Shown here piece after piece: positions 26,387 through 51,100 of a DNA stretch of 64,000 bases. Source of the DNA: Actinomycetota bacterium (GTDB lineage: Bacteria; Actinomycetota; CADDZG01; WHSQ01); NCBI GenBank assembly GCA_009380005.1, contig WHSQ01000008.1, forward strand, positions 1 to 64,000, in the 5' to 3' direction. The translations under genes and the position numbers were made by a program. Position 1 is the first letter of the stretch, and every line of letters starts with the position of its first letter. Under the pieces are notes generated by a model. That model did not search any database and was not told the origin of the DNA. It saw nothing but the letters and a program-made list of their open reading frames with translations.

Positions 26387-26500
26387 TTGGACCCCGAAGA
26401 GATCTATCAAGAGGTGCTCACCGAGGAGCAGCAGAAGGGCTCGGCCCCCGCCGTCGCCGAGGGGCGCGCGAAGGCGGCCCGAGCCCGAGCCGAGCTCGGC
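26387..26500 (+). other. Shared about 37-aa respiratory module, copy 2 (N-terminus of cupredoxin 2)
   Basis: Residues 1-38 of the cupredoxin protein. They align without gaps to residues 2-39 of the cytochrome b C-terminal subunit: EEIYQEVL corresponds to DEVFDQVL, and GSAPAVAEGRAKAAR corresponds to GSSPAVAQARAKAAR. Confidence 0.82.
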
Positions 26501-27436
26501 TCTCCCCACCCCAAGGAACCGAAGTGGTGGCCCGGCGCGCAGCCTCATCTCGAGGGTGGCGGCGAAGCGGCGGAGGCGGAACCGGCCCCGGTCGAAGCCG
26601 AGGCCGAGGAGGCCCCCGCGCCCGAAGTGCCGGCGGCGGAACCCGCGCCGGCGCCCGCGGCGGAAGCTCAGCCCCAGCAACCCGCGGTCACCGCCGCTCA
26701 GGCGGAAGCGGACGCGACCCCCCAGACCGTCGCCCCTCCCTCCGATCCCGGTATCGAGACGCCGGCCGCGGCCGCCGCGGCGGAACCCGCGCCGGCGGCC
26801 GTCGCGGTCGCTCCCGCGGCGCCCCAGACCGTCACGCAGCTGCCACCTGAGGCGCGGCCCGCGGGGGTGCGGACGGGGACGGCCAGCGGCAACCGGCTCC
26901 GTCCCGAGGATGGCGTCTCGACCGAGGCGCAGTTCGAGGGCCAGGCGGCGATGTACGAACGGCGCAAGGTCATCGACGAGCTCGTGGCCACCGGCGTCCC
27001 GGCTGCGGCCGTCCGGCGCGACGACGACAGCGGCTCGCCCATGCTCGCCCTCCTCTACCTCATCATCCCGATCCTGGCTCTCGTGGTCCTGGCGAACCTG
27101 AACATCGCCGGGGGCGAAGAGGGCGGCGGCGGAGGCGGCGAAGGTGGGGGAGGTGGGGGAGGCATCAAGCTCTCGGCGGCCAACGTCCAGTTCGACACCG
27201 ACACCCTCCAGTTGCCGGCCGGCGAAGAGGCCACGATCAGCTTCAACAACGAGGACACCGCGGAGCACAACGTCGCGATCTACGAGGACTCCAGCGCCGA
27301 GGCGGATCTCTTCAAGGGCCAGATCATCTCGGGCGGGGACTCGACCGAATACCAGGTGGGGCCCTTCGAGGCCGGCGCCTACTACTTCCAGTGCGACGTC
27401 CACCCGGCGATGAACGGGGACGTCGAGGTCTCGTAG
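26387..27436 (+). CDS. Membrane-anchored cupredoxin 2 with N-terminal shared module
   Basis: A 349-residue protein from TTG 26387 (GGGAGA lies 6 nt upstream). Residues 1-38 are the module shared with the cytochrome b C-terminal subunit and NuoI-2. An Ala/Pro/Glu-rich linker follows (about 50-165), then a short helical segment, a membrane helix (about 217-239), a Gly-rich stretch and a C-terminal cupredoxin domain (about 263-349) with His in AEHNVAIY and Cys, His, Met in FQCDVHPAMNG. The module would be cytoplasmic and the copper domain outside. This could tether a copper carrier to respiratory complexes. Confidence 0.85.
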   Translation: MDPEEIYQEVLTEEQQKGSAPAVAEGRAKAARARAELGSPHPKEPKWWPGAQPHLEGGGEAAEAEPAPVEAEAEEAPAPEVPAAEPAPAPAAEAQPQQPAVTAAQAEADATPQTVAPPSDPGIETPAAAAAAEPAPAAVAVAPAAPQTVTQLPPEARPAGVRTGTASGNRLRPEDGVSTEAQFEGQAAMYERRKVIDELVATGVPAAAVRRDDDSGSPMLALLYLIIPILALVVLANLNIAGGEEGGGGGGEGGGGGGGIKLSAANVQFDTDTLQLPAGEEATISFNNEDTAEHNVAIYEDSSAEADLFKGQIISGGDSTEYQVGPFEAGAYYFQCDVHPAMNGDVEVS

Positions 27437-27475
27437 CTCGCCCGGAACCATTCCGTAATAGACTCGTTCCGCAGC

Positions 27476-27493
27476 TTGTGAAGTTTTTCACAA
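27476..27493. promoter_or_regulatory. Perfect Rex-type operator upstream of the nuo operon
   Basis: TTGTGAA-GTTT-TTCACAA is an exact match to the Rex redox-repressor consensus (TTGTGAA, four bases, TTCACAA). It is the core of a 10-bp perfect inverted repeat, 27473-27496, with a 4-nt loop. It lies 47 bp before the first gene of the operon that contains nuoA-N, with a possible -10 (TAGACT, 27459-27464) just upstream, so a bound repressor would block initiation. Rex releases DNA at high NADH/NAD+. No rex gene is present in the window. Confidence 0.8.
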
Positions 27494-27540
27494 GCTCGTC
27501 TGCGCCCCGACACCCGGCTCAGAAAGAGAGGTAGGCCGCA

Positions 27541-28773
27541 GTGCCCACCGAGGTTGACGTCGTCGTCGTCGGTGGCGGCCCGTCCGGTTCCGCGGCGGCT
27601 CACTACCTCGCCGCCAGGGGCCATTCCGTCGTCGTCTGCGAGCGCGAGACGTTCCCGCGCGAGAAGACGTGCGGCGACGGACTGACGCCTCGGGCGGTCA
27701 AGGTCCTCCTCGACATGGGCCTCGACGAGGACCTCGCCGGGTGGGAGCGCGTCGTCGGCCTGCGGGTCCACGCCGAGCGCAGGATCCTCGAGATCCCTTT
27801 CCCGAAGCTCGAGCGATGGCCGGACTACGGGCTGGTCAAGCCGCGCAAGGACCTGGACGAGGTCGTGCTGGATCATGCCGAGAGCTTCGGAGCCAAGGTG
27901 CTCTTCGGAACGACGGTGACCGAGCCCGTGTTCGACCGAGGCGTCGTGGTCGGCGTGAAAGTGAAGCGCGACGACGGGGATGAGGAGATCCGCTCCAAGT
28001 TCGTCATCGTGGGCGAAGGTACGGGCACGAAGTTCACTCGCACGCTGGGCCGCGACCGCGATCCGGCCTATCCCATGGGTTTCGCGATCCGGCAGTACTT
28101 CGATTCGCCCTTCGAGCACTCCGGTTGGTTCGACGCGTGGCTCGGCGTCAAGTCGGGGGTGGACTCGTTGCCGGGATACGGCTGGGTCTTCCCGGTCGGA
28201 GACGGGAGCGTGAACGTCGGGGTCGGTTTGCTGTCGACCTTCGAGCGCTGGCGCGAGGTGAACCTCCGCCGACTCCAGAGCAACTTCGTCTCCGTCATCC
28301 CACCCGACTTCGAGATCAACTCCCACACGGTCCTCTCGCGCGAGAGAGCCGGTCGCCTGTTCATGGGTCAAAGCATCTGGCCCCCCCACGGTCCGGGGTT
28401 CATCCTTACCGGGGACGCAGCCGGGATGATCAATCCCTGTAACGGCGAGGGCATCGCTTATGCGTACGAGACCGGGCGGATGGCGGGCCGTCACATCGAC
28501 GAGGCCCTCCGTGCCGGCAGCTCGCCTTCCTTGGAGAGCTACACGGCGGAGATAGAGCGTGTCTACGGCCCCTACTATCGGCTGGGGCGCCGGTTCGTGA
28601 AGGTGATCGGGCATCCCAGGCTGATGGGTTTCCTGGTTAGCAATGCGATGCGGTCGGAGGCGCTGATGAGCTTGACGTTCACTCTCCTTGCCAACCTGGA
28701 GGACCGCCGGGCTCACAGCGGCCAGCAGAAGATCTTCAAGGCGATGAACAAGCTCGCGGAGTGGAAGCCATGA
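27541..28773 (+). CDS. Geranylgeranyl reductase/menaquinone reductase family flavoprotein
   Basis: A 410-residue FAD protein from GTG 27541 (GAGAGG upstream). It has the N-terminal dinucleotide motif [19 protein letters not shown], the [17 protein letters not shown] motif and the late FAD motif [21 protein letters not shown], typical of the geranylgeranyl reductase/MenJ group that reduces prenyl chain double bonds. As first gene of the nuo operon it probably partially saturates menaquinone. Its stop overlaps nuoA by ATGA. The exact substrate is inferred from context. Confidence 0.88.
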
Positions 28774-29135
28774 CGCTCGATTCCTACGTGCCGATCCTGT
28801 TCCTGATCGTCCTCTCCACGTTGTTCGCCGTGGCGTCGATCTGGGTGTCGTCGAGGATCGGTCCCCGAGCTCCGACGCCCGCGAAGCTCACGCCGTACGA
28901 ATCCGGGATCGTTCCCGAAGGGGGGATCGAGAAGCAGCGCTTCCCGGTGAAGTTCTATCTGGTGGCGATGCTCTTCATCATCTTCGACATCGAAACCGTC
29001 TTCTTGTACCCGTGGGCGGTCGCGTACGACAACCTCAAGCTGTTCGGCTTGATCGAGATGGGTGTGTTCATCGCCATCCTGCTGGCCGCGTACGTGTACG
29101 TCTGGCGTCGTGGAGGTCTCGAATGGGTGGATTAG
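28770..29135 (+). CDS. nuoA: NuoA, complex I membrane subunit (14-subunit complex)
   Basis: A 121-residue, three-helix protein with the NuoA/ND3 motifs PYESGI and [12 protein letters not shown]. It starts at the ATG that overlaps the previous stop (ATGA). It sits at the junction of the peripheral and membrane arms of complex I. First nuo gene of an operon with all 14 subunits. Confidence 0.95.
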
Positions 29136-29623
29136 AGGGATCGCTCGGTCAGAACTTCATCACCGCTCGTCTCGACAAGTTGGTCGACTGGTCGCGCCGC
29201 TCCTCGCTGTGGCCCGCGACCTTCGGGCTCGCATGCTGCGCCATAGAGATGATGGCGACGACCATGCCGCGCCACGACCTGTCCCGGTTCGGCATGGAAG
29301 CGTTCCGTGCATCGCCTCGCCAGGCAGACGTCCTGATAGTCGCCGGGCGCCTGTCACAGAAGATGGCTCCCGTCTTCCGGCACATCTACGACCAGATGAT
29401 GGAACCGAAGTGGGTCATCTCCATGGGCGCGTGCGCGTCCACCGGGGGCGTATTCAACAACTACGCGCTCGTCCAGGGCGTCGATCAGATCGTCCCCGTC
29501 GACATCTACGTGCCGGGCTGTCCTCCGCGCCCGGAGATGTTGATCGACGGCATCATGCTTCTCCACGAACGCATCAAGAACGGGGAGTACCGCGTTCGCC
29601 GCACGCCCGAGGGCGTCGGTTGA
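29123..29623 (+). CDS. nuoB: NuoB, complex I N2-cluster subunit (14-subunit complex)
   Basis: A 166-residue protein with the N2 [4Fe-4S] ligands: adjacent cysteines in [14 protein letters not shown] and VPGCPPRPE. The ATG at 29123 (GGAGG upstream) lies inside nuoA, overlapping it by 13 bp. It donates electrons from N2 to menaquinone. Confidence 0.95.
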
Positions 29624-30110
29624 TGGAGACGGCGTACCTGTCCGGGAGGGAGTGGACCGAGCGCGCGCGGAGCCTGAGGGAGGAGGGCTGGCGCCTCAGC
29701 GCCTATTGCGGCGTAGACCGCCTCAACCTCGGTGGCGGTGAGGTCCGGTTCGAGATGGTGGCCCAGCTCATGCAGCCGGAGACGAAGGATCTCCTCACGA
29801 TCCACGTCGGAGCCGAGGGCGACCCGCCGACGATCCCGTCCGTGAGCGGGATCTTTCCGACGGTGAACTTCATGGAACGCGAGGCCTACGACCTGTACGG
29901 CATCCGTTTCGAGGGGCACCCGAACCTCCGGCGCCTCCTCCTCCCGGACGAATGGGAAGGCCATCCGTTGCGTAAGGACTACGGCGTCGGAAAGGTGCCC
30001 CTGCAGTTCTTGCCGCAACCGTTCCTGCAGATCGATCAGCCCGGCCAGGCTCCCGACGCCGCCGAAGCCGGCGCCGAGGTCGACGACCTCGGCCAGTCGG
30101 GAAGAGCGCG

Positions 30111-30114
<4 letters not shown>
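29623..30114 (+). CDS. nuoC: NuoC, complex I 30-kDa subunit (14-subunit complex)
   Basis: A 163-residue soluble subunit with the family motif EREAYDLYGIRFEGHPNLRR and LLPDEWEGHPLRKDYG. TGATG overlap with nuoB and ATGA overlap with nuoD. A short Ala/Glu/Asp-rich tail follows the conserved end. Confidence 0.93.
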
Positions 30115-31351
<1,237 letters not shown>

Positions 31352-31355
<4 letters not shown>

Positions 31356-32134
31356 CCCAGACCCAGAACGGATCGTCGCGACGCGTGCTGTCGGACGAGT
31401 TGAGGTCGACGGCCGAAGAGATCGTCGCCAAGTACCCCAACAAACGCTCCGCGACGATCCCGCTCCTGTTCCTGGTCCAGAGCCAAGAGGGCTACGTCAC
31501 GGAGGACGGCATGCGCGAGGTCGGCGAGATCGTGGGGATCACGCCTGCGCAGGTCCTTGCGACGGCGAGCTTCTACACGATGCTCAAGAAACGTCCCCAG
31601 GGTGAGTACCTGATCTCGGTGTGCCGGAACATCTCGTGCACCCACCTGGGCGCGAGGAAGGTGATCCAGAGGCTCGAGGACCATCTCGGGATCGCCGCCG
31701 GCGGCACGACGGAGGATGGGAAGTTGTCGCTCGAGGCCGCCGAATGCCTCGCTACCTGCGATGGAGCCCCATCCATGCAGGTGAACTACGAAGACTTCTA
31801 CAAGGTGAGCCCCGAGGAAGCGGTGGAGATCGCCGACAAGCTGACCGGCGGCGACGAGGTCCGCAGCGTCGCGGGCGAGCGGGTGAAGACCGCGCGGGAG
31901 ATCTCTTACGAGACCGCGACGGCCGGGCTCCGCTCGCCGGGCAGCGCCGGTGACCAAACCGGCCCCGTGATCGGTGGGGAGACCGGAGCCGCCGTGGTCA
32001 CCGAGGGCTTTCGGCCCAAGGTGACCGGGGTGGAGCAGATCGACGACGCCACCGCGGAGGAAGACATCGCCGCAACGGGCGAGGACACGTCGGTCTCCGG
32101 CGAGGGTGATGCGCCCGGGGAGCGCGACGCGTGA
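31352..32134 (+). CDS. nuoE: NuoE, NADH-module 2Fe-2S subunit with long C-terminal tail
   Basis: A 260-residue protein from GTG 31352 (GTGA overlap). The first 165 residues or so are the thioredoxin-like [2Fe-2S] domain, with cluster ligands in CRNISC and CLATC. A further 95 residues, rich in Gly, Thr, Glu and Asp (VTGVEQIDD and an acidic end), extend past the usual end of NuoE, which is about 160-200 residues. The tail is unstructured-looking and its role is unknown. Confidence 0.93.
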
Positions 32135-33477
32135 GCCCCGTGTCGGGCCGGCCTCGCGGCGAGGTGCGGATCGTGACGCGCCGGATGCGCGAGTACCCGG
32201 AGGATTCGTGGACGTTATCGCGCGCCCTGGATGACGGCGGCTACGAGGCGTCGCGCAAGGTCGTGACGCAGATGACGGCCGACGACACGATCGAGCTCGT
32301 CAAGAGCTCCGGATTGCGAGGGCGCGGCGGGGCCGGCTTCCCCACCGGGATGAAGTGGTCGTTCGTGCCCAAGGACGTCTTCCCGAAGTACGTCGTGATC
32401 AATCACGACGAGGGAGAGCCGGGCACGTTCAAGGACCGTGAGCTCGCCGAGCTGGACCCGCATGCCCTGATCGAAGGCATCACGATCGCGTGCTGGGCGA
32501 ACCAGGCGAACAAGGCGTTCATCTACTGCCGCGGTGAATTCGCGCTCGGCTCTCGCCGGATGGATCGGGCGATCCGCGAGGCGTACGAGAAGGGTTTCCT
32601 CGGCGACGGGATCTACGGTTCGAAGTTCGACCTCGACATCATCTTGCACCGCGGTGCCGGCGCCTATATCTGCGGAGAGGAGTCGGCGCTGCTGGATTCC
32701 CTCGAGGGCTTCCGGGGACAGCCCAGGCTGCGACCGCCGTATCCCGCGGTGAAGGGTCTGTACGCACAGCCGACCGTCGTCAACAACACCGAGACGTTGA
32801 TGGCGTTGCCGGCGATCATCGATAAGGGCGCCGATTGGTACAGGAAGTGGGGAACCGAGAAGTCGCCCGGAACCAAGGTTTTCTCCGTCTCGGGCCACGT
32901 GAAGGAGCCGGGCAACTACGAAGCTCCGCTGGCGATGCCGCTGTCGGAGGTGCTCGAGCTCGCCGGCGGCATGCGCGACGGCAGCGAGTTCAAGGCCGTG
33001 ATCCCCGGCGGCGCCAGCGCTCCCTTGCTGACCGACCTGAGCGTGCCCATGGACTTCGAATCGCTGAAGGACGCGGGCACGATGTTGGGCTCAGGGGCCA
33101 TCGTGTTCATGGATCAGACCACGTGCATGGTGCGGAACGCGCTCGTGACCACCGAGTTCTTCGAGCACGAGTCGTGCGGCAAGTGCACGCCGTGCCGCGA
33201 AGGGACCTGGTGGGGGGTCAAGGTGCTCGAACGGATCGAGCACGGCGAAGGCCGCCCGGAGGACATGGATCTGCTCCTGGATATCTGCGACGGCATCGAC
33301 GGCCGGGCCTTCTGCCCCCTCGGCGACGCCGCTTCCTGGGCCCTCCGCTCCAACGTGAAGCTCTTCCGCGACGAGTTCGAGGCGCACGTCTCCGAAGGCC
33401 GCTGCATATTCGACGGCGAGCACAAGCAGCTCGTCGGGGCTCGCGCCCGAGGTGACGAGATGGAAGGTGGGTCGTGA
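32131..33477 (+). CDS. nuoF: NuoF, NADH-binding FMN subunit
   Basis: A 448-residue subunit with the NADH/FMN motifs GLRGRGGAGFPTGMKW and NHDEGEPGTFKDR, and the N3 [4Fe-4S] ligands in ESCGKCTPCREG plus a distant FCPLGD. It oxidises NADH. Starts at GTG 32131 (GTGA overlap with nuoE). The second nuo operon lacks this gene. Confidence 0.96.
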   Translation: MSPVSGRPRGEVRIVTRRMREYPEDSWTLSRALDDGGYEASRKVVTQMTADDTIELVKSSGLRGRGGAGFPTGMKWSFVPKDVFPKYVVINHDEGEPGTFKDRELAELDPHALIEGITIACWANQANKAFIYCRGEFALGSRRMDRAIREAYEKGFLGDGIYGSKFDLDIILHRGAGAYICGEESALLDSLEGFRGQPRLRPPYPAVKGLYAQPTVVNNTETLMALPAIIDKGADWYRKWGTEKSPGTKVFSVSGHVKEPGNYEAPLAMPLSEVLELAGGMRDGSEFKAVIPGGASAPLLTDLSVPMDFESLKDAGTMLGSGAIVFMDQTTCMVRNALVTTEFFEHESCGKCTPCREGTWWGVKVLERIEHGEGRPEDMDLLLDICDGIDGRAFCPLGDAASWALRSNVKLFRDEFEAHVSEGRCIFDGEHKQLVGARARGDEMEGGS

Positions 33478-36047
33478 CCCAGAACGGCGGCGCGCCGAAG
33501 GACACGCAGGTCGGTCTCACGCTGAACGGCCGGGAACTGAAGGTCGAGAAGGACCGGCTCCTGATCGACGTCGCCGAGGAGGTCGGGATATTCGTTCCCC
33601 GCTTCTGCTACCACCCGGGCATGAAGTCGGTGGCGGTCTGCCGGATGTGTCTCGTCAAGGTGGAAGGTTCGCCGAAGCTGTTGCCCGCCTGCGCCACCCC
33701 GGTTACCGACGGCATGGTCGTGGACACGGTGGACGAGACCGCGGTCGACGCCCAACGGGGGATGCTGGAGTTCCTGCTGATCAACCACCCGCTCGACTGC
33801 CCGATCTGCGATCGTGCCGGCGAGTGCCCGCTGCAGGATCAGACCTATGCGCACGGACCGGGAAGCACGCGCTACGTGGAACCCAAGCGCACCTACGAGA
33901 AGGCTCTCGAGATCTCCGAGCTCGTGGTGCTCGATCGGGAGAGATGTGTCCTGTGCTGGCGGTGCGTGCGGTTCGCGGACGAGATCGCAGGCGACCGGTT
34001 CATCCAGCTCGTCGATCGGGGGCCCGGGACCCAGATCCTCACCTTCTCCGACGAGCCTTTCGACAGCTACTTCTCCGGCAACACGATCCAGATCTGTCCG
34101 GTCGGCGCCCTCACGTCGAAGCCCTACCGCTTCGTGTCGCGCCCCTGGGACCTCCAGACCGCCCCGAGCGTCTGTACCTATTGCTCGGTCGGGTGTCCGC
34201 TGACGAACGAGTCGCGCGACGAGAAGATCGTGCGTTGCCAGGCGCTACCCAACGAGAACGTCAACGACTTCTGGCTCTGCGACAAGGGCCGCTACGGATA
34301 TCACCACGTGGAGTCGGCTGAGCGGCTCGGCTCGCCTCTCGTGCGCTCGGGCAAGGAGTTCGAGCCCGCCAGCTGGGGAGCGGCCGTCGACAAGATCGTG
34401 TCGGCGATCAAGGACAAACGCCGTATCGGCGTGATCGCGGGCGGCCACCTCACGACCGAGGATGCCTACGCGATCGGCAAGCTCGCGAAGAAGGTGCTCG
34501 AGACGAAGGACGTCGACTCACGCATCCAGGATGCAGGCGCACCCTACGAACGCGCGCTTGCTCTCGGAGGGATCGCGGGCTCGACCGCGACCTTGAACGA
34601 CGTCGAGGGGGCTCCCGAGATCCTGTGGGTCGGACCCGATCCTAAGGAGACGCTGCCGGTCCTGTACCTGCGCCTGCGTAAGGCGGTGAACGACGGTGGG
34701 GCGCGGTTGACGGTTGTCTCGCCGCGCGCCACATCGCTGGATGTGATCGCTGCGAAGGTCGTTCGGTGCGAGGCGGGTGGGGAGGGCCGGGCCCTCCGCG
34801 AGATCGATGACCTCGGCGACGACGCGGTCGTTTGCTGGGGCCAGTCGTCGCCGGGCCGGGACGAGACCGACGCGTTCGATGCAGCCGTCGCCGCGTCGCA
34901 AGCGTCCGGCGGCAAGCTCTTGGTTTGCGTTCCGCATGCGGGCTCTCAGGGCATGCTCGACATGGGCGTGCACCCCGGGCTCGATGCCGGCTACGTCGAG
35001 GTGGCGGAGCCGGGCCGCGACACCCGTGCGATCTTGGAGGCTGCTGCGGCGGGCGAGCTCGACGCGCTGTTCCTATTCGGGGCCGATCCGATCGCCGACT
35101 TCCCCGACGCAGGCCTCGCCCGCAGGGCCCTCGAGAAAGGCATCTTCACCGTAGCGGTAGAGCTCTTCCCGACCCAGTCGGCGATGCGCGCCGACGTCGT
35201 GCTTCCCAGCGCCGCCTACGCGGAGCGCGAGGGCACGTTCACGAACCTCGAGCGGCGGGTGCAGAAGCTGGAGCGTCTCGTCGCGCCGCCGGGCACCGCA
35301 CAGGAGCCGTGGAAGACCTGCGCCGCGATCGCAGGGGCGCTGGGCGATGCGTGGGGGTGGGCCCGTTGCGATGACGTCTGGGACGACATCCGCAGGAACG
35401 TGCCGACCCACAAGGACCTCGACCTCGCGCTGCTGACGCAGGAGGCCCCCGCCCACGCTCCCTTCTACGAATCCGCCTTCGGAGACGTGCAGACGCACAC
35501 CATGGATCCCCCGGCGCTCACGGTGGCGGGGCCGGGCGGTCAGTACCCGAAGGGTTATCGGTCGGGCGCGCCGTTCCAGACCGGTCAGAACTGGCCGCTC
35601 TCGTGGGAGTTGCGTGCCTTCGAGGCCAAGCAACGTCCCGGCGTGATCCCGCACCCGAACGGCTCGGCGAACGGTCACGGCGCGGCCCCCGCGGGTGCAC
35701 CCGACGCGCCGGACGCCGCACCTCGTGCGGCCGAGGGCGGTGATGACTTCGTGCTCCTCAGCGGTCGATTGATCTACGACGAGGGCTCGATGGTCTCCCG
35801 CAGCAAGGCGTTGGGAAACATCGCTTCGGGCGGCTACGCGGAACTGAACCCAGGCGACGCGGCCGACCTGGAGGTGTCCGCCGGCGATCGGGTCGTCCTT
35901 CGCGGCGCGGGGGCCGAGGTGACGCTGCCGGTGCGGATCGGCGACATCGCGAAGGGCGCGGTGTACGTGCCCTACGACCAGCGTGATGTGAAGGCCAACA
36001 CCCTCATGTCGGGCGTCGACTCGCGAGTCGGGGTGGCGAAGGCGTGA
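33474..36047 (+). CDS. nuoG: NuoG, complex I large iron-sulfur subunit
   Basis: An 857-residue protein: N-terminal [2Fe-2S] domain (CYHPGMKSVAVCRMC and PACAT), the HPLDCPICDRAGECPLQD motif, two [4Fe-4S] motifs starting CVLCWRC, an N7-type set (CTYCSVGC with a later LCDKGRYGY), then a molybdopterin-oxidoreductase-like domain that continues to the C-terminus. An Ala/Pro-rich interdomain stretch lies at about residues 720-755. It relays electrons from NuoF/E to NuoI. GTG start overlapping the nuoF stop. Confidence 0.95.
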   Translation: MTQNGGAPKDTQVGLTLNGRELKVEKDRLLIDVAEEVGIFVPRFCYHPGMKSVAVCRMCLVKVEGSPKLLPACATPVTDGMVVDTVDETAVDAQRGMLEFLLINHPLDCPICDRAGECPLQDQTYAHGPGSTRYVEPKRTYEKALEISELVVLDRERCVLCWRCVRFADEIAGDRFIQLVDRGPGTQILTFSDEPFDSYFSGNTIQICPVGALTSKPYRFVSRPWDLQTAPSVCTYCSVGCPLTNESRDEKIVRCQALPNENVNDFWLCDKGRYGYHHVESAERLGSPLVRSGKEFEPASWGAAVDKIVSAIKDKRRIGVIAGGHLTTEDAYAIGKLAKKVLETKDVDSRIQDAGAPYERALALGGIAGSTATLNDVEGAPEILWVGPDPKETLPVLYLRLRKAVNDGGARLTVVSPRATSLDVIAAKVVRCEAGGEGRALREIDDLGDDAVVCWGQSSPGRDETDAFDAAVAASQASGGKLLVCVPHAGSQGMLDMGVHPGLDAGYVEVAEPGRDTRAILEAAAAGELDALFLFGADPIADFPDAGLARRALEKGIFTVAVELFPTQSAMRADVVLPSAAYAEREGTFTNLERRVQKLERLVAPPGTAQEPWKTCAAIAGALGDAWGWARCDDVWDDIRRNVPTHKDLDLALLTQEAPAHAPFYESAFGDVQTHTMDPPALTVAGPGGQYPKGYRSGAPFQTGQNWPLSWELRAFEAKQRPGVIPHPNGSANGHGAAPAGAPDAPDAAPRAAEGGDDFVLLSGRLIYDEGSMVSRSKALGNIASGGYAELNPGDAADLEVSAGDRVVLRGAGAEVTLPVRIGDIAKGAVYVPYDQRDVKANTLMSGVDSRVGVAKA

Positions 36048-37303
36048 TCGACTGGATCAAACAGCTCCCCGGCAACGTCATCGACTTCATCGGGCCGGAG
36101 ATCATCATCGCGACGGCCAAGGTCGTGCTCGTGTTCGGGGTACTCCTCGTGACGACGCTCCTGGTGATCTGGTTCGAGCGCCGGGTCATCGCGGATATGC
36201 AGGCCCGCGTCGGACCGAACCGGTGGGGGCCGTTCGGTCTCTTCCAGACGCTCGCGGACGGGATCAAGCTCTTCTTCAAGGAAGACTTCCGCCCCGCCGC
36301 CGCCGATCGCTGGACCTTCGTGATCGCCCCGGTGATGGCGATGGTTCCCGCGTTCCTGGCGTTCGCCGTCGTGCCGTTGGGAGACCACGTCGTCATCGCC
36401 GGCCATCGCGTCGATCTGGTGATGAGCGACCTGAACATCGGCATCCTGTACTTCCTCGCCGTGGGTTCGCTGGGCGTGTACGGGGTGGTGCTCGCCGGCT
36501 GGGCATCGGGATCCAAGTACCCGTTGATCGGAAGCATCCGCTCGACGGCACAGATGATCAGTTACGAGATCGCGCTGGGACTGTCGCTGGTGCCGATCGC
36601 GTTGGTCGCGGGCAGTCTCTCGACGGTGGACATCGTGGCCGCGCAGGCAGGGACCTACGACAACATCGTGCTGTTCGGCCGCGATCTGAACTTCCTCGAA
36701 GGGATCATCCCGCACTGGTTCATCGTCCAGCAGTGGCCGGCGTTCTTGATCTTCCTCGTCGCCGGCATCGCGGAGACGAACCGCGCCCCCTTCGACCTGC
36801 CGGAGGCGGAGACGGAGCTGGTCGCGGGTTACCACACGGAGTACTCGGGCATCCGCTTCGCCATGTTCTTCCTCGGCGAGTACGTACACGTGGTGGCCAT
36901 CTCTGCCATGGCGGCCACGTTGTTCTTCGGGGGCTGGCACGGTTGGAACCCCGCGTTCCCGGCCGCGATCGACTGGCTGCGATGGATCGTCCCCATCTTC
37001 TGGTTCACGATCAAGACCGTCGCGTTCGTCTATCTGTTCGTTTGGCTGCGCGCTACGTTGCCGCGGTTGCGCTACGACCGGTTGATGTGGGTGGGGTGGA
37101 AGCGGTTGATCCCCGGCGCGCTCGTCTGGATCGTCGTCACGGCGGTGTTGAACAGCGATCCCGAGGAAGTACCGACCAGCGCCAGGCTCTGGGTCATGGC
37201 CGTGGTGTTCGCGATCTTGCTCGCCTGGGTCTGGCGGGGTGACCCGCGACTCACGGCCCTGGAGCCGTGGCGGAAGAAGGAGGTCACTCGTGGCACTGCC
37301 TGA
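36044..37303 (+). CDS. nuoH: NuoH, complex I membrane subunit (14-subunit complex)
   Basis: A 419-residue ND1-type protein with eight or more membrane helices, the quinone-site loop [19 protein letters not shown], and [27 protein letters not shown]. Start at GTG 36044 overlapping nuoG. It links the quinone cavity to the proton-pumping arm. Confidence 0.95.
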
Positions 37304-37778
37304 GATATTCACGGGCCTGACGACCGTCATCAAGAACGTCTTCCGTCGCAAGGACACGGTGGGCTATCCAGAGGTGCGGCGACTTCCCTTCCCCCGTTAC
37401 AAGGGGCGCCACATCCTCGACCGTCATCCCGACGGCCTCGAGAAATGCATCGGCTGCGAGCTATGTGCAGGGGTCTGTCCCGCCGACGCGATCCGGGTGG
37501 TCGGAGCGGAGAACACGGCGGAGGAGAGGTTCTCGCCGGGCGAGCGCTACGCGCAGATCTACCAGATCAATTATCTGCGTTGCATCTTCTGCGGGCTGTG
37601 TGTCGAGGCCTGTCCGACGGAGGCTCTGCTGATGACGACCGAGTACGAGCTGTCCGGTTCGACGCGTGAAGACCTCATCTACACGAAGGAGCAGCTGATC
37701 GTCGATGCTCCCATCATCCGCCACTGGGACACGAAGAAGGAGTTGCCGCCCGACATCAACCTGAAGGGCACCTCCTAG
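37290..37778 (+). CDS. nuoI: NuoI, complex I 2[4Fe-4S] subunit (14-subunit complex)
   Basis: A 162-residue protein from GTG 37290 (AGGAGG 7 nt upstream), overlapping nuoH by 14 bp. Two cluster motifs, [12 protein letters not shown] and [12 protein letters not shown], are intact. It has the normal length, without the long tail of the second NuoI and without the extra Cys after the first motif. Confidence 0.95.
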
Positions 37779-38350
37779 TGGACGTAGCGGTTTTCGTCGC
37801 CGTCTTCGTGCTCGCCCTGGGCTCCTCGCTGGCGATGCTCTTCGCACGTAATGCAGTTCACGTTGCCCTCTTCCTCGTCGCCGGTCAGGTCGCTCTGGCG
37901 GTCGCCTTCCTGCTGCAGGGTGCGTTCTTCGTCGCAGCGGTACAGGTGATCGTTTATGCCGGCGCCATCATGGTGTTGTTCCTCTTCGTGATCATGCTGT
38001 TGGGAGTCGACCAGCGCGAGGCACTGATCGAGCCCCTCCCCGGGCAACGCCCGCTCGCGATCGGCCTCGGCGCGCTCTTGGTGTTGGAGATCCTGTACGC
38101 CTCGATGCGGGGTCTCGATCTGGCGAGCGCGAGCCCCGAGGGTTCGGCAGCGCTGGCCCGGCTGAACGCGGATCCCGGCAACGTCGAAGCTCTGGCCCGG
38201 CTGCTCTTCAGCGACTTCCTGCTGCCCTTCGAAGTGACCTCCGTCCTGCTGGTCGCCGCGATCGTCGGCGTCATGGCGCTGGCTCGCAGGATGGGCGGTC
38301 CGCTCACGGCCTCGGAACGATCGGATCGCGCAGAAGAGGTTGCCGCATGA
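37778..38350 (+). CDS. nuoJ: NuoJ, complex I membrane subunit (14-subunit complex)
   Basis: A 190-residue ND6-type protein with five membrane helices and the conserved [21 protein letters not shown] stretch. TAGTG overlap with nuoI and ATGA overlap with nuoK. Confidence 0.93.
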
Positions 38351-38655
38351 CGCGGGTCGACCCGGGATACTTCCTTGCCCTCGCCGGGCTCATGTTCAGC
38401 ATCGGGGTGGTCGGCACACTCGTCCGGCGCAATGCGATCGTGATCTTCATGTTCGTCGAGCTGATGTTGAACGCCGTGAACCTGGCGTTCATCACGTTCG
38501 CGCGCATGCACGGCGAGCTCGACGGCCAGGTACTGGTCTTCTTCGTGTTGGTCGTCGCTGCGGCCGAAGCCGTCGTCGGTCTCGCGATCATCCTGCGCAT
38601 CTACCGGCTGCGCGAGTCCGCCAACGTCGACGACGTCAACCTCCTGAAGTGGTGA
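38347..38655 (+). CDS. nuoK: NuoK, complex I membrane subunit (14-subunit complex)
   Basis: A 102-residue, three-helix ND4L-type protein with [15 protein letters not shown] and [12 protein letters not shown], carrying the two membrane glutamates needed for proton translocation. Confidence 0.94.
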
Positions 38656-38659
38656 TCGG

Positions 38660-40564
38660 GTGACCTCGGGAGACTTCGGTCAGCTCGCCCCCTTGATCAT
38701 CGCTCTGCCTCTGCTGGGCGCACTCGCGCTGTTCTTCTTCGGCCGTCGCATCGGGACCGCCGCCGGCACCGTGGCCTCGGCGACGATCGGCGCCGCGTTC
38801 GTGATCGGCGTAGTCACCTTCTTCGAGCTCCTGGGCCACGAGCACGGACATCGTTCGAGCGTGGTGGAGCTGTGGGAGTGGGTAGCCGCCGGCAGCTTCC
38901 GCGTGGGCGTCGACCTGTTGATCGACGAGCTCTCGATGGTCATGGTCCTGGTCGTCACCGGGGTCGGAACTCTCATCCACGTGTACTCGATCGGTTACAT
39001 GCACGACGATCCCAGGTACCCGACGTTCTTCGCCTACCTCAACCTTTTCGCGGCGTCGATGTTGCTGCTGGTGCTCGCCGAGAACGTCTTGTTGTTGTAC
39101 GTGGGCTGGGAGGGTGTCGGCCTCTGTAGCTATCTGCTGATCGGGTTCTGGTTCGAGAGACCGGCCGCAGCCAACGCTGCGAAGAAAGCCTTCATCGTCA
39201 ACCGGATAGGTGACCTCTCGTTCCTGATCGGCATCCTCGTCCTGACCACGACCGTTGGTGCATTGTCCGTCGGTCAGATCAACGCCGAAGCGGGTGCCAT
39301 CTCCGCGGGGATGGCAACCGTGGCGGCGCTCCTGCTGTTCGGCGGGGCGACCGGTAAGAGTGCCCAGATACCGCTCTACGTGTGGCTGCCGGACGCGATG
39401 GAGGGCCCGACCCCGGTATCGGCTCTGATCCACGCCGCCACGATGGTGACGGCCGGTGTGTACATGGTGGCCCGGCTGTCGCCGGTGTTCGAGGCATCTT
39501 CGGGCGACTTGGCCTTGACGATCGTCGCCTGGGTGGGTGCCGCCACGGCTCTGTTCGCGGCGGTCATGGCTTGCGCGGAGAACGACATCAAGCGCGTCCT
39601 GGCGTACTCGACGATCTCGCAGCTCGGCTACATGTTCCTGGCCCACGGGGTCCACGCGTACTCGGCCGGGATCTTCCACCTCGCGACGCACGCGTTCTTC
39701 AAGGCGCTGATGTTCCTTGGCGCCGGCGCGGTGATGCATGCGCTGGCCGGCGAGACGGACCTGCGGAAGATGGGCGGTCTGCGGAGGGTGATGCCGGTCG
39801 TCGGGTGGACGTTCGCAGCCGGCTGGCTGGCGATCAGCGGGGTGATCCCGTTCGCCGGATTCTTCTCCAAGGACGCGATCCTTGCTTCCGCGTGGGCCGA
39901 CGGCGAGTACGGCCTGTGGGCGGTCGGCGTGCTCACGGCTCTGTTGACCGCGTTCTACATGTCCCGTCTCTACTTCAGCGTCTTCGAGGGCGACCTCGTC
40001 GTGCCCGAGGGCGTGCACGTCCACGACGCCCCGGTCACGATGGCTACGGCCCTGGTGCCACTCGGCGTCCTGTCCGTCGTCGGCGGGGTGCTGAACCTGC
40101 CCGGGGTCCTGACCCTGGAGCACTTCCTGGAACCGGCCGTCGGCGAGTCCCACGTTCCCGAGGGCCTGATCCCCTGGGTCCTCGCCGGCCTCGCGTTGTT
40201 CGTCGCGGCCCTCGGCATCGGCCTTGGATGGCGGCTGTACGCGCGTCGTGACGGCGAGGCGAGACGCCGGGCGTGGCAGCGGCGCGTACCGTGGCTCGTC
40301 ACGGGGGCCCGCAACAAGTTCTACGTGGACGAGTACTACGGGGGCCTGGTCGTGGGACCGGCGAAGCGGACGGCTACCTTCTTCGCCGATGTCTTCGACA
40401 CCCGCGTGATCGACGGCGTCGCCAACGGGGCCGGATGGGTCGTCGCTCGTTCGGCGGCGGGCCTGCGCAAGATGCAGACCGGCTACGTACGCAACTACGG
40501 GCTGGTCTACCTCTTCGGCGTCGTACTGGTCTTCTCGCTGTTGATCATGAAGGCGGTTCGGTGA
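38660..40564 (+). CDS. nuoL: NuoL, complex I antiporter-like subunit (14-subunit complex)
   Basis: A 634-residue ND5-type protein from GTG 38660. It has the GWEGVGLCSYLLIGFW motif with the key Glu, a lysine-containing helix (GGATGKSAQIPLYVWLPDAMEGPTPVSALIHAATM) region, and a long amphipathic C-terminal helix with final anchor. Proton-pumping subunit. Confidence 0.94.
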   Translation: MTSGDFGQLAPLIIALPLLGALALFFFGRRIGTAAGTVASATIGAAFVIGVVTFFELLGHEHGHRSSVVELWEWVAAGSFRVGVDLLIDELSMVMVLVVTGVGTLIHVYSIGYMHDDPRYPTFFAYLNLFAASMLLLVLAENVLLLYVGWEGVGLCSYLLIGFWFERPAAANAAKKAFIVNRIGDLSFLIGILVLTTTVGALSVGQINAEAGAISAGMATVAALLLFGGATGKSAQIPLYVWLPDAMEGPTPVSALIHAATMVTAGVYMVARLSPVFEASSGDLALTIVAWVGAATALFAAVMACAENDIKRVLAYSTISQLGYMFLAHGVHAYSAGIFHLATHAFFKALMFLGAGAVMHALAGETDLRKMGGLRRVMPVVGWTFAAGWLAISGVIPFAGFFSKDAILASAWADGEYGLWAVGVLTALLTAFYMSRLYFSVFEGDLVVPEGVHVHDAPVTMATALVPLGVLSVVGGVLNLPGVLTLEHFLEPAVGESHVPEGLIPWVLAGLALFVAALGIGLGWRLYARRDGEARRRAWQRRVPWLVTGARNKFYVDEYYGGLVVGPAKRTATFFADVFDTRVIDGVANGAGWVVARSAAGLRKMQTGYVRNYGLVYLFGVVLVFSLLIMKAVR

Positions 40565-42117
40565 GCAACTTCCCGTTCCTCGACGTCGTGATCTTCCTAC
40601 CGCTGGCGGGAGCTTTCGCGGTGGGGCTCATCCCGCGCGACAACGACGGTGCGCTGCGGTGGACCGCCTTCGCCGTGACGCTGGTGACCTTCGTCGTGTC
40701 CCTCGGCCTTCTGTTGAACTTCGACTCGGACGCGGCCGGCTTCCAGCTCGGCACCGATGTGCGTTGGGTGAAGGATTGGGGGGTCGGCTACATCACGGGG
40801 ATCGACGGCATCAGCCTGTGGATGATCATGCTCACGACGTTCCTGATGCCCCTGGCGGTCCTGGCGTCGTGGACGATCACGACCCGATTGAAGCCTTACT
40901 TCGTCTTCCTGCTCGCGCTCGAGACCGGGATGCTCGGCGTCTTCTCGGCCCTAGACCTGTTCCTCTTCTACGTCTTCTGGGAGGTCGCCCTCATCCCGAT
41001 GTACTTCCTGATCGGGATGTGGGGGTACGCCAATCGGATCTACGCGGCCGTGAAGTTCTTCCTGTTCACCGTGCTGGGTTCGCTGTTGATGCTCGTCGCG
41101 ATCCTGTTCGTGTACTTCAACGCCGGCGAAGGAGCGACGTTCGACTACCGCGCGCTCCTGGGGACCCCGTTCTCCCCGGAGGTCCAGCGACTGTTGTTCC
41201 TCGGCTTCTTCGCAGCCTTCGCCGTGAAGGTGCCGCTCGTGCCGCTCCACACCTGGCTGCCCGACGCTCACACCGAAGCGCCCACGGCGGGTTCGGTGAT
41301 GCTGGCCGCCGTCATGCTGAAGATGGGCGCCTACGGGCTGTTGCGTTTCGCGATCCCTCTGTTCCCGGACGCGGCGCGCGAGTTCGTCCCGCTCGTCATG
41401 ACGCTCGCCATCATCGGCATCCTCTACGGCGCCGCGGTCGCCGTGATGCAGAAGGACCTCAAGCGTCTCGTCGCCTACTCCTCGGTCGCCCACCTGGGGT
41501 TCGTCGTCCTGGGGATGTTCGTGGGGACGGTCGAAGGCATGAGCGGCGGGATCCTGCAGATGATCAACCACGGTCTTTCGACCGGGGCGCTGTTCCTGCT
41601 CGTCGGAGCGCTCTACGACCGGCGGCACTCGCGGCTGATCGCCGACTTCGGGGGCCTGTCGAAGTCCGTCCCGGTCCTGGCGGGCATCTTCCTCTTCGTA
41701 GCGCTGTCGTCGCTGGGCTTGCCGGGGCTCAACGGCTTCGTCGGCGAGTTCCTCATCCTGCTGGGGACGTGGACGGCTTACCGGTGGTGGGTCGTCCCCG
41801 CCGCGTTCGGCATCGTTCTCGCCGCGATCTACCTGTTGTGGGCCTACCAGCGCGTCTTCCACGGAGAGCCCGTGATCGAGGAGAACCGCGTCATGATCGA
41901 TCTGAACCTGCGCGAGGTCTCGATGCTGGCGCCGATCATGGCTCTGATCGTGCTGATCGGCGTTTACCCCAAGCCGTTCCTCGACACGATCGAGCCCGCC
42001 GCCGAGCGCACCGCGCAGGTCTTGAAAGAGGGTTCGGTCGCCTCCCGAGACGGGGCGCAACAGCTACGTCGTCACATCGTGGCCGGCCCCCTCGTTCCCG
42101 TGCTCGAGGAGGACTAG
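40561..42117 (+). CDS. nuoM: NuoM, complex I antiporter-like subunit (14-subunit complex)
   Basis: A 518-residue ND4-type protein from GTG 40561 (GTGA overlap). It has FYVFWEVALIPMYFLIGMWG and LPDAHTEAPTAGSVMLA with the conserved Glu and Lys residues. Gene order nuoL-M-N is canonical. Confidence 0.94.
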   Translation: MSNFPFLDVVIFLPLAGAFAVGLIPRDNDGALRWTAFAVTLVTFVVSLGLLLNFDSDAAGFQLGTDVRWVKDWGVGYITGIDGISLWMIMLTTFLMPLAVLASWTITTRLKPYFVFLLALETGMLGVFSALDLFLFYVFWEVALIPMYFLIGMWGYANRIYAAVKFFLFTVLGSLLMLVAILFVYFNAGEGATFDYRALLGTPFSPEVQRLLFLGFFAAFAVKVPLVPLHTWLPDAHTEAPTAGSVMLAAVMLKMGAYGLLRFAIPLFPDAAREFVPLVMTLAIIGILYGAAVAVMQKDLKRLVAYSSVAHLGFVVLGMFVGTVEGMSGGILQMINHGLSTGALFLLVGALYDRRHSRLIADFGGLSKSVPVLAGIFLFVALSSLGLPGLNGFVGEFLILLGTWTAYRWWVVPAAFGIVLAAIYLLWAYQRVFHGEPVIEENRVMIDLNLREVSMLAPIMALIVLIGVYPKPFLDTIEPAAERTAQVLKEGSVASRDGAQQLRRHIVAGPLVPVLEED

Positions 42118-43593
42118 ATGGAGTTCGAGGCTCCTGCCGTCCAGCTCGGCGCCATCGGGCCCGAGATCGCCCTCGTCACGACGGCGCTCCTGCTGCTGAT
42201 CGTCGACGCGTTCATCCCTGAAGGGGAGGAGCGCTGGTATCTCGCCGTGCTGGCGACGATCGGCTTCGGCGTCGCCATCATCCTGGCCGCGAACCAGTGG
42301 GGCGAGCGAGAGCTGCAACTGGCCCGCATGGTGGCGGTCGACAACTTCGCGACGTTCGTGAAGACCTCCGTCGCCGTCTTCGCCGTCCTCACGGTATGGC
42401 TCTCGAGGGACTACCTCAAACGGTCGGAGGACGAGGAGTCGGAGTTCTACGCGCTGCTGTTGTTCGCCGCCGCCGGCATGATGCTGATGGCGTCGGCGGC
42501 CGACCTGATCATGGTGTTCCTGGCTCTCGAGATCTTCTCGATCTCCCTGTACGTCCTGGTCGGCTTCCGCCGCCGCTCTCTCGCGAGCCAGGAATCGGCG
42601 ATGAAGTACTTCTTGCTGGGGGCGTTCTCGTCGGCGTTCTTTTTGATGGGGATCGCTCTCGTCTACGGCGCTACGGGCACGACCAACTTCTATCCGGGCG
42701 GAGGCGGCGAGGGGATCGCCGGGTATCTGGTGAGCAGCGCAGCGAGCGACGTTGATCTGCTGGTCCTGGGCGTCGGGCTCCTCATCGTGGGTCTCGGGTT
42801 CAAGATCGCCGCGGTGCCGTTCCACATGTGGACGCCGGACGCGTACCAGGGAGCGCCGTCGCCGATCACGGGATTCATGGCGGCCGGGACGAAGTTCGCG
42901 GCCGTCGCCACGATGCTACGGCTCTTCGTCGTGGTGCTGTATCCCCTCCGAGCCGACTGGCGACCGATCCTGATCGCCGTCGCCATCGCCACGATGCTCC
43001 TGGGGTCCGTCCTGGCGGTGATCCAGGAGGACGTGAAGCGACTCCTTGCCTATTCGTCGATCGCCCACGCCGGCTTCGTGCTGACCGGACTGATCGCGGC
43101 GAACGACCGGGGCCTGTCCGGCTCGCTGTTCTATCTGGCGACGTACGGCCTCACGGTGCTCGGCGCGTTCGCGGTGGTGACCGTGCTCGCCGGTCGTAAG
43201 GAACGGAACGTCACCCTCGCCAGCTATCGAGGGCTGTTCTACGAACGTCCGTTGCTGGCCGGCGCGCTGACGTTGTTCATGCTGTCGCTCGCCGGCGTTC
43301 CCCTGACTTCCGGCTTCGTCGGCAAGTTCCTGGTCTTCGGCGCAGCCATCCAGGCGGGGTATTGGTGGCTCGCCGTGATCGGCATGCTCGCCAGCGTGAT
43401 CGCAACCTTCTTCTACCTGCGGGTGCTGGTCGTCATGTACATGCAGGAGGACGATCGGGGCCTCCAACCCGCGATCACGGGCCGCCTCGCCAACTCGGTC
43501 GTGGGCCTGACCGCCGCGGCGACGCTGGTGCTGGGGATCGTATGGGGTCCCTTGATCGACCTGGCCGAGAGGGCCACGGTCTTCTTCGCCTAG
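42118..43593 (+). CDS. nuoN: NuoN, complex I antiporter-like subunit (14-subunit complex)
   Basis: A 491-residue ND2-type protein with FLALEIFSISLYVLVGF and the KIAAVPFHMWTPDAYQGAPSP region. The ATG follows the nuoM stop directly. Its stop is 4 bp from the stop of the convergent metallophosphoesterase; no terminator hairpin is visible between them. Confidence 0.94.
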   Translation: MEFEAPAVQLGAIGPEIALVTTALLLLIVDAFIPEGEERWYLAVLATIGFGVAIILAANQWGERELQLARMVAVDNFATFVKTSVAVFAVLTVWLSRDYLKRSEDEESEFYALLLFAAAGMMLMASAADLIMVFLALEIFSISLYVLVGFRRRSLASQESAMKYFLLGAFSSAFFLMGIALVYGATGTTNFYPGGGGEGIAGYLVSSAASDVDLLVLGVGLLIVGLGFKIAAVPFHMWTPDAYQGAPSPITGFMAAGTKFAAVATMLRLFVVVLYPLRADWRPILIAVAIATMLLGSVLAVIQEDVKRLLAYSSIAHAGFVLTGLIAANDRGLSGSLFYLATYGLTVLGAFAVVTVLAGRKERNVTLASYRGLFYERPLLAGALTLFMLSLAGVPLTSGFVGKFLVFGAAIQAGYWWLAVIGMLASVIATFFYLRVLVVMYMQEDDRGLQPAITGRLANSVVGLTAAATLVLGIVWGPLIDLAERATVFFA

Positions 43594-45651: not shown

Positions 45652-46020
45652 GTGCCTGAAGGCTATTTCGGTCAGTACTTCACGATCGCTATCTTCATAG
45701 TCGCGGGCGTGGTCCTGGTCCTCGGGACCTTCGCGTTGGCCAAGCTGCTGAGCCCCTTCCAGCCGCACACCGAGAAGCTGACGACCTACGAGTCGGGCAT
45801 CGATCCGATCGGCACGGGTTGGAGCCAGGCCAACGTCCGCTATTACATCTTCGCCCTGCTCTTCGTGATCTTCGACGTGGAGGCCATCTTCCTGTTCCCC
45901 TGGGCCGTCGTCTTCGAGCGACTCGGGACCCAGGCCTTCGTCGAGATGGTGATCTTCATCGGGATCCTCACCCTCGCCCTGTTGTACGCGATCAAGAAGA
46001 AGGTCCTCGAATGGCTGTGA
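45652..46020 (+). CDS. nuoA: NuoA-2, complex I membrane subunit (11-subunit complex)
   Basis: A 122-residue protein from GTG 45652 with [11 protein letters not shown] and [12 protein letters not shown]. It opens the second complex I operon. The 233-bp gap to the divergent phosphoesterase has a possible -10 (TAGTTT near 45560) but no Rex-like palindrome. Confidence 0.92.
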
Positions 46021-46541
46021 TGGAGAAGGTCAAGCTGCCTAAGCCCGCCGCTTGGGCGTTGAACTGGAGCCGCAGGTACTCGCTGTGGGTGATGCAGTTC
46101 GGCCTCGCCTGTTGCGGGATCGAGATGGGGGCGGCGTTCGCCAGCAAGTTCGACGTGATCCGGTTCGGGGTGATCCCCTTCCCGGCTTCTCCCCGCCAGG
46201 CCGACCTCTTGGTCGTCGCAGGGACCGTGACCGACAAGATGGCGGCTCCTCTGAAACGCGTGTACGACCAGATGCCCGAGCCCAAATACGTGATCTCGAT
46301 GGGGTCGTGCGCCAACTGCGGGGGGCCCTACTGGGATTCGTACTCGGTGACGAAGGGCTGCGACCAGCTCATGCCGGTCGACGTCTACGTCCCAGGCTGC
46401 CCACCGCGGCCCGAGGCGCTGCTGCAGGGCATCATCCGGCTCCAGGCCAAGATCGACGGTGAAGACATCCAGGAGAAGTGGAAGGGCCACGACACGCTGA
46501 TCCCCCACATCCCGGAGCCGGGCCTGGCGGGAGGCATCTAG
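46011..46541 (+). CDS. nuoB: NuoB-2, complex I N2-cluster subunit (11-subunit complex)
   Basis: A 176-residue protein with N2 ligands in [17 protein letters not shown] and VPGCPPRPE. The ATG at 46011 (AAGAAGG upstream) overlaps nuoA-2 by 10 bp; an ATG at 46020 is possible. It carries an additional Cys (CANC) near the third ligand, as is common in NuoB. Confidence 0.93.
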
Positions 46542-46545
46542 GGCG

Positions 46546-47106
46546 GTGTCGGTGCAAGAACGGGTGAGCGCCGAGGAAGCGGTCGAGCGGCTCCGTTCGA
46601 CGCTCGGGGACGACGTGGGAGATGTCGAGGTCCGCTTCGGGCATCTGGATGCGACCTGCTCGGCCGAGAACCTGCGCCACGTCATGACCACGCTGCGCGA
46701 CGAGCCCGGCCTCCGTTTCGAATTCTTCACGTTCCTCTCGGCGATCGACCGCTCCGAGTTCGGTGGCCCCGACAAGCCGGACAAGCACGGGGGCCTGGAG
46801 CTCATCGTCCACCTGTACTCGCCCGCCCACGTCCTGCACATAAACGTGCGCGTGCCGCTCGACCTCGCCGATCCTCGCTGCGAGAGCATCTCCGCCATCT
46901 ACCGGGGGGCCAACTGGCACGAGCGAGAGATGCGCGACATGTTCGGGATCCAGTTCGAAGGTCATCCGAACCTGACCGGGATCTACCTACCGGAAGACTT
47001 CGAGGGGCATCCGGGCCTGCGCTCGTTCAAGTTGCCCAACCGCGCCTTCATCAAGCCCTGGCCGGGAGCGAAGGATCCCGAAGAAGCCGCTGCCGGGGGG
47101 CGGTGA
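46546..47106 (+). CDS. nuoC: NuoC-2, complex I 30-kDa subunit (11-subunit complex)
   Basis: A 186-residue protein from GTG 46546 with YRGANWHEREMRDMFG and FEGHPNLTGIYLPEDFEGHPG, the NuoC signature. It is a separate gene, not fused to NuoD. Confidence 0.92.
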   Translation: MSVQERVSAEEAVERLRSTLGDDVGDVEVRFGHLDATCSAENLRHVMTTLRDEPGLRFEFFTFLSAIDRSEFGGPDKPDKHGGLELIVHLYSPAHVLHINVRVPLDLADPRCESISAIYRGANWHEREMRDMFGIQFEGHPNLTGIYLPEDFEGHPGLRSFKLPNRAFIKPWPGAKDPEEAAAGGR

Positions 47107-47107
47107 C

Positions 47108-48256
47108 GTGACCCAGATCCGCACCCCCGAGGACGTCGCCCGTGAGGTGGCCGAAGGTGGTCTGGCGACCCAGCAGATGATCCTGAACGTCGGCCCGCAG
47201 CACCCGGCGACGCACGGTGTGTTCCGCCTGCTGGCTACGATCGACGGCGAGATCCTGGCCGAGGCCGAGCCCGTTATCGGCTACATGCACCGCGGCTACG
47301 AGAAGCTCGTCGAGGCGCGCGACTATCGGCAGATCACGAACCTCGTGTCGCGCATGGATTGGCTGTCGGGTTTCAACAACGAGCTGCCGTTGGCGATGGC
47401 GCTCGAGACGTTGATGGAGATCGAGGTTCCGCCGAGGGCGCAATGGCTACGCGTCGTCATGCTGGAGATGAACCGCATCCTGAACCACCTGATGTTCTTC
47501 GCCTCGTTCGGCGCGGAGCTCGGTGCGATCACGCCGACCTTCTATGCCTTTCGCGAACGCGAGGACATCCAGCTGGCGATGGAGAGTGCGACCGGCGGCC
47601 GGATGCACTTCGGCTTCATGCGACCGGGTGGTCTCAAGGAAGACGTACCGCGCGGGTTCATCGCTCAGGCCCTCAAGAGCGTGCGACAGGTCATCGCCCG
47701 CTTGGACCAGTACGAAGACCTGCTCGTCGGCAACGAGATCTTCAAGCAGCGCACCGTAGATGTGGGAGTGCTGAGCCGGGAGCAGGTCATGTCGTACGGC
47801 GTCTCGGGCCCGATCGCTCGTGGCTCCGGCGTGTCGGACGATGTCCGTAAGGACGAGCCGTACCTCGTATACGACCGGTTCGACTTCAACGTCCCGATCG
47901 GCCACAGCGGGGACTGCTTCGACCGGTTCTGGGTCCTGGTGCACGAGGTCGTCGAGTCCGCCCGCATCGTGGAGCAGGCGATCGAGGGCCTGCCGGCCGG
48001 TCCCGTCCTCGGCAAGGTGCCGCGCGTGATCCAGGCTCCCGAGGGCGAGGTCTACGTGCGGGCCGAGAACCCGCTCGGCGAGCTCGGTTACTACCTGGCC
48101 TCGGACGGCGACCGCCGTCCCTACCGGCTGAAGATCCGGACCCCGAGCTTCAACAACGTCTCGGTGCTCCCGGAGGTCCTCCGCGGCACCTTCGTCGCCG
48201 ACATGATCGCCATCCTCGGCTCGTTCTTCTTCGTCTTGGGGGACATCGACCGTTGA
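47108..48256 (+). CDS. nuoD: NuoD-2, complex I 49-kDa subunit (11-subunit complex)
   Basis: A 382-residue protein with HPATHGVFRLLATIDGE and IGYMHRGYEKLVEARDY. The quinone-site residues are kept. Shorter than NuoD-1 and different in many loops. Start GTG 47108. Confidence 0.93.
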   Translation: MTQIRTPEDVAREVAEGGLATQQMILNVGPQHPATHGVFRLLATIDGEILAEAEPVIGYMHRGYEKLVEARDYRQITNLVSRMDWLSGFNNELPLAMALETLMEIEVPPRAQWLRVVMLEMNRILNHLMFFASFGAELGAITPTFYAFREREDIQLAMESATGGRMHFGFMRPGGLKEDVPRGFIAQALKSVRQVIARLDQYEDLLVGNEIFKQRTVDVGVLSREQVMSYGVSGPIARGSGVSDDVRKDEPYLVYDRFDFNVPIGHSGDCFDRFWVLVHEVVESARIVEQAIEGLPAGPVLGKVPRVIQAPEGEVYVRAENPLGELGYYLASDGDRRPYRLKIRTPSFNNVSVLPEVLRGTFVADMIAILGSFFFVLGDIDR

Positions 48257-50534: not shown

Positions 50535-51100
50535 TGGAGGCTGCCTGGCAAGAAGGTCTGTTCTTCGTATTCGCAACCGTCATCACGGTCTCGGCGATCG
50601 GCGTCGTCACGGCGCGGAACGTGATCCATGCCGCCCTCTTCCTGGTGGCGACCCTGATCGGCGCGGCCTGCATCTACATCCTGATGTTCGCCGAGTTCGT
50701 CGCCTGGGCTCAGGTCCTGGTCTACGTCGGAGCGATAGTGGTGCTGATGCTGTTCGGCCTCATGCTGACGCGAGCTCCGATCGGCAAGTACGGCGAATAC
50801 GACAACGACCAGAAGGGGTTGGCCGCGATCGTCGCAGCCGCGGTGTTCGGCGTTACGGCGTGGGTGTTGATCGACTCCTTCGAGGGAGTCGAGCTCCCCA
50901 CGGACCGGGTGGCTGCGACCACCAGCAAGGACGTCGGCGAGGCCATCTTCTCTTCCTACGTGCTCCCGTTCGAGCTCGTCTCCGTGCTCCTTCTGGCCGC
51001 GCTGGTCGGAGCCGTCGTCATCGCCCGCCGTGACGAGCGCGTGACCTCGAGGACCATCGATGCCGCCCGGCGCGAGAAGGCTCGGGAGGAAGACGTCTGA
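50534..51100 (+). CDS. nuoJ: NuoJ-2, complex I membrane subunit (11-subunit complex)
   Basis: A 188-residue ND6-type protein from GTG 50534 (TAGTG overlap) with AWAQVLVYVGAIVVLMLFGLML and five membrane helices. A basic Arg/Lys/Glu tail ends the protein. Confidence 0.91.
   Translation: MEAAWQEGLFFVFATVITVSAIGVVTARNVIHAALFLVATLIGAACIYILMFAEFVAWAQVLVYVGAIVVLMLFGLMLTRAPIGKYGEYDNDQKGLAAIVAAAVFGVTAWVLIDSFEGVELPTDRVAATTSKDVGEAIFSSYVLPFELVSVLLLAALVGAVVIARRDERVTSRTIDAARREKAREEDV

Follow-up and report, generated by a model that had tools for sequence, protein, structure and literature searches.

A probable Rex operator before a 14-subunit complex I operon, and the predicted outline of a small Rex regulon in its actinobacterial family

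What controls the 14-subunit complex I operon carried by the window, the whole 64-kb stretch of DNA analysed here? A likely answer lies in the 104-bp gap between an upstream cupredoxin-domain gene (26387-27436) and the GTG at 27541 that starts the first gene of the operon, which encodes a geranylgeranyl reductase-family (GGR) flavoprotein. Positions 27473-27496 read AGCTTGTGAAGTTTTTCACAAGCT, which is a perfect 10-bp inverted repeat of the form AGCTTGTGAA-GTTT-TTCACAAGCT. Enclosed within it, at 27476-27493, is the 18-mer TTGTGAAGTTTTTCACAA, an exact match to the Rex consensus TTGTGAA-N4-TTCACAA with GTTT as the spacer. The 18-mer ends 47 bp before the GTG, and is thus in the promoter region of a respiratory operon, GGR-nuoA-N, for which the start point is inferred. 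A preliminary description of this DNA had pointed out the exact operator match, the perfect repeat and the 47-bp distance, and all three were confirmed. We consider it very probable that 27476-27493 serves as operator for Rex, the repressor that senses NADH/NAD+, whose binding here and response to NADH would be as in characterised Rex proteins. The features of the locus are collected in Table 1.

Table 1. Positions of the operator, the predicted promoter element and the surrounding genes in the window.
Feature	Positions	Strand	Basis and remarks
Cupredoxin-domain protein, upstream gene	26387..27436	+	PF13473, PF00127; palindrome 36 bp past gene end
Predicted -10 box TAGACT	27459..27464	+	TAGACT/TAGGAT-type box closely upstream of operator in relatives; also in operator-less G016 and G021
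Inverted repeat around operator, 10-bp, perfect	27473..27496	.	Read from sequence; 10-bp stem on folding; stem not kept in relatives
Probable Rex operator (ROP), exact TTGTGAA-N4-TTCACAA	27476..27493	.	Sequence match; 0-1 mismatch in 10/10 testable family members and in G019
GGR-family flavoprotein (possible menaquinone reductase MenJ), first operon gene	27541..28773	+	TIGR02032 over cut-off; best model NF045655 below its cut-off
14-subunit nuoA-N operon (NADH:quinone oxidoreductase)	28761..43593	+	Pfam/NCBIfam matches for A, B, D, E, F, G, H, I, L, M and N
11-subunit nuo operon (A-D, H-N), comparison operon	45673..56502	+	No E, F or G found; no Rex site

The 18-mer is the sole match at up to three mismatches in the window, where 0.34 would be expected at such tolerance, and an exact match is expected only about 1.4e-5 times per window, or 8e-4 times per genome, at 66.5% G+C. 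It is also conserved. Among family members that have sequence before GGR-nuoA, and are therefore testable, the site is kept at the same spot with at most one mismatch in 10 of 10, the source genome included, at 13-86 bp before the reductase start. In G004 the nuo site is present by synteny, and it is found too in G019, a genome of the sister family; the site before the ATP synthase (atp) operon recurs in 13 family genomes and in G019. Two genomes of the same class, G016 and G021, have kept GGR-nuoA and a TAGGAT -10-like box but lack the operator (at least six mismatches), and neither contains a Rex match at E<=1e-10. These relatives without a Rex match, which retain operon and promoter box but not operator, form a clean natural control for the ten family members and G019, where Rex and site occur together. 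More broadly, of 61 genomes, 20 of the 46 with Rex carry an exact site and none of the 15 without it does (Fisher p = 0.0012, a value that is only indicative because the genomes are related). A chance palindrome without function was rejected given its low expectation, its fixed position in relatives and its absence from genomes with no Rex match, and has an extremely small probability in our view. Among the points against the Rex reading is that the relatives' nuo site usually has TCGTGAA, one step off the consensus. Separately, five f3 genomes that lack a Rex match share a conserved stretch, TTGTGATAGCTTTCA, close before nuoA (L108-L112, about 1375-1422). In some of them a downstream AGCTATC makes it an inverted repeat. 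The stretch may be a decayed operator or the site of another regulator.

The source genome encodes one Rex. Its protein scores 343.5 bits against the NCBIfam equivalog NF003992 (cut-off 226) and exceeds the cut-offs of PF06971 and PF02629 (Put_DNA-bind_N and CoA_binding Rossmann domains); three weaker PF06971 matches in the genome fell under the cut-off and were left out. It aligns to solved Rex structures with E about 1e-47, and the alignment includes the stretch VRKDLSY-GSYGTRGVGY and the nucleotide-binding glycine motif VGIGNLG. With a Rex homologue in the genome and the site conserved in relatives, the two tests that had been proposed for the Rex reading both came out in its favour. The gene lies on contig C177 and is followed by hemA, forming a rex-hemA operon. 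In its promoter, 17 bp ahead of the start codon, is TTGTGATTACGCTCACAA, and 14 of the 15 family genomes retain a site there, at one or two mismatches. Near rex-hemA there is also a gene for a Crp-family regulator (L074:4364-5101), and several family genomes have relatives of it near rex. In G005, a second, broken-looking Rex-like sequence, split over frames, lies near an intact rex (G005:C18:87747-88409, L141-L144).

Further sites, which the preliminary description had suggested searching for, are few. At up to two mismatches the 3.8-Mb genome (639 contigs, contamination 1.4%) has only four, and the reversed control has none. Besides the nuo site, these lie before the ATP synthase operon (C111), before rex-hemA (C177) and before a gmd-guaB3 pair (C22). 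Three of the four are exact, the rex-hemA site being the one with two mismatches. The Rex regulon of this genome thus appears very small, consisting of nuo, the F-type ATP synthase, rex-hemA and whatever is served by the one site before gmd-guaB3.

The same map bears on a second possible owner of the palindrome, a CRP/FNR-family regulator like GlxR/CRP of other actinobacteria. TGTGA-N6-TCACA is the CRP/GlxR core, and the nuo site holds it exactly; the source genome also has Crp-family genes, one of them near rex on C177 with a recognition helix of RE...R type (read by eye). However, the genome holds just four copies of this looser core, at exactly the four Rex-type sites and so also at rex itself, with no genome-wide population apart from them, which argues against a CRP-type regulator. 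In addition, every one of the 26 sites at nuo and atp has A7 and 25 of them have T12, although the CRP core leaves both positions free; these counts use sites of at most one mismatch and are therefore partly selected for the result. The distribution of the proteins also speaks against it, as G019 carries Rex and both the nuo and the atp site yet has nothing related to the C177 Crp protein at E<=1e-10, and G021 has a Crp relative but no site. We rejected a CRP/FNR site, on the lack of further core matches and on the A7 and T12 positions, as a very unlikely reading.

A perfect 10-bp stem would also form in RNA, and it begins 36 bp past the upstream stop codon, so the repeat could in principle terminate transcription of the cupredoxin gene or, as a hairpin at the 5' end, stabilise the nuo mRNA. 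There is, however, no U-tract, and the GC-rich hairpin plus U-tract of an intrinsic terminator was not called on the + strand. The pairing itself is broken in relatives, where 9 of 12 have C at position 2 and 11 of 12 still have A at its partner, A17, with the other bases of the motif kept. As position 2 is mostly C opposite A at the nuo sites, the conserved feature is not a hairpin. The same motif moreover lies 5' of atp and rex. Both forms of the RNA explanation were rejected for want of a U-tract and of conserved pairing, and we regard them as extremely unlikely.

Returning to the Rex operator, its position suggests how it might act. In most relatives a TAGACT/TAGGAT box (read by eye) is found upstream of the operator, between a few and about a dozen bases away, and no consensus -35 was found for the nuo promoter in the window sequence. 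The operator had been described as overlapping or just downstream of a possible -10; the downstream placement holds but the overlap does not, since the TAGACT box is wholly upstream. We infer a transcript start near 27471-27473, and because the box precedes the operator, the latter is predicted at about +1 to +24. New here is this predicted placement, in which the operator sits at the start point and follows a conserved -10. In the source genome the atp and rex operators overlap the -35/-10 interval (boxes read by eye). If Rex here behaves as characterised Rex proteins do, from which repression is taken as the direction of regulation, then with NAD+ dominant a Rex dimer would bind the palindrome, where it would cover the predicted start point and the bases just beyond it, and would impede either the initiation of the GGR-nuoA-N transcript or its promoter escape. 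A rise in NADH, such as low oxygen may bring, would load Rex with NADH and release it from the site, and the NADH-oxidising 14-subunit complex I could be made.

That the operon behind the site encodes a complete 14-subunit enzyme was borne out, with NuoE, F and G present, and with nuoC, J and K assigned by position only. The label 'menaquinone reductase' for the first gene stood in part. Membership of the geranylgeranyl reductase family is supported and MenJ is the best model, but the score against NF045655 is 247 bits where the curated cut-off is 700. As the preliminary description had it, the 11-subunit operon of the window has no equivalent site, at up to three mismatches, and throughout the source genome's family the best resemblance before this operon has at least four mismatches (fetched loci, 1.5 kb flanks). 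In G019, however, TTGTGATAATTTTCACAA lies before nuoA of the 11-subunit operon with one mismatch (L237:18536-18553), so the lack of a site before the NADH-less form holds for the family but is no general rule. The predicted preference for the NADH-oxidising over the NADH-less complex I makes it directly testable how cells that have both forms divide their use.

Some of the sites suggest targets beyond energy conversion. The exact site on C22 (G000:C22:55888-55905, L072:5889-5906) is 127 bp before the pair for GDP-mannose 4,6-dehydratase and GuaB3, adjoins a divergent transglycosylase-like gene, and recurs, at up to two mismatches, in 8 of the 11 family genomes that could be tested. A YgjP-like metallohydrolase gene (PF01863) has a Rex-type site about 100 bp upstream in 10 of 14 family genomes (L147-L149, L161, L197, L198, L201, L205), and its counterpart in the source genome has none. 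In G006, G010 and G014, Rex-type sites also separate a SufB/D-family gene for Fe-S assembly from a divergently oriented EamA transporter gene; a fourth genome, G004, has such a site too, at the end of a contig on which only the EamA gene is seen (L195, L199, L202, L207 including G004). We therefore list gmd-guaB3, the ygjP-like gene and suf as predicted candidate targets, with the regulated gene uncertain in the divergent regions. A literature search found no description of these sites as Rex targets and no paper linking Rex with YgjP; for suf and Rex it gave one match, which merely cites a Rex paper. On balance, we lean towards a family Rex regulon that is small and partly rewired, in which complex I and ATP synthase are tied to suf, the gmd-guaB3 operon and the YgjP-like metallohydrolase, and in which the 14-subunit form is targeted and the 11-subunit form spared, G019 having a site before both.

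Rex was reportedly first described in Streptomyces coelicolor. The statement that it controls nuo in Streptomyces has a published basis for S. avermitilis, where qRT-PCR, gel shift, ChIP and footprint established that Rex controls nuo, atp and rex-hem (PMC5355995), so the nuo case here is of an already known type. The two systems share the consensus TTGTGAANNNNTTCACAA and three core targets (nuoA1-N1, atpIBEFHAGDC and rex-hem), rex adjoins hemA in both, and in both the atp and rex sites lie around the -35/-10 interval, as judged here from boxes read by eye. They differ at nuo. The S. avermitilis nuoA1 operator, at -42 to -16, covers the -35 region (PMC5355995), whereas ours follows the predicted -10 and precedes GGR, so the blocking step would differ here; in its placement it resembles instead the cydA1 operator, at -3 to +25 (PMC5355995). 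The S. avermitilis search gave 36 sites with one to three mismatches, none of them exact, and 11 published targets (PMC5355995), in contrast to the four sites at up to two mismatches, three exact, seen here; the gmd-guaB3, ygjP-like and suf sites are absent from those 11 targets. Kibdelosporangium, Amycolatopsis, Umezawaea, Blastococcus and other actinobacteria share the extended 24-mer AGCTTGTGAAN4TTCACAAGCT near GGR and nuoA. In many of these the site is between GGR and nuoA, unlike here, but in Blastococcus it stands before GGR as in the source genome. In short, the proven Streptomyces Rex circuit of nuo, atp and rex-hemA can be extended to a set of genomes outside Streptomyces.
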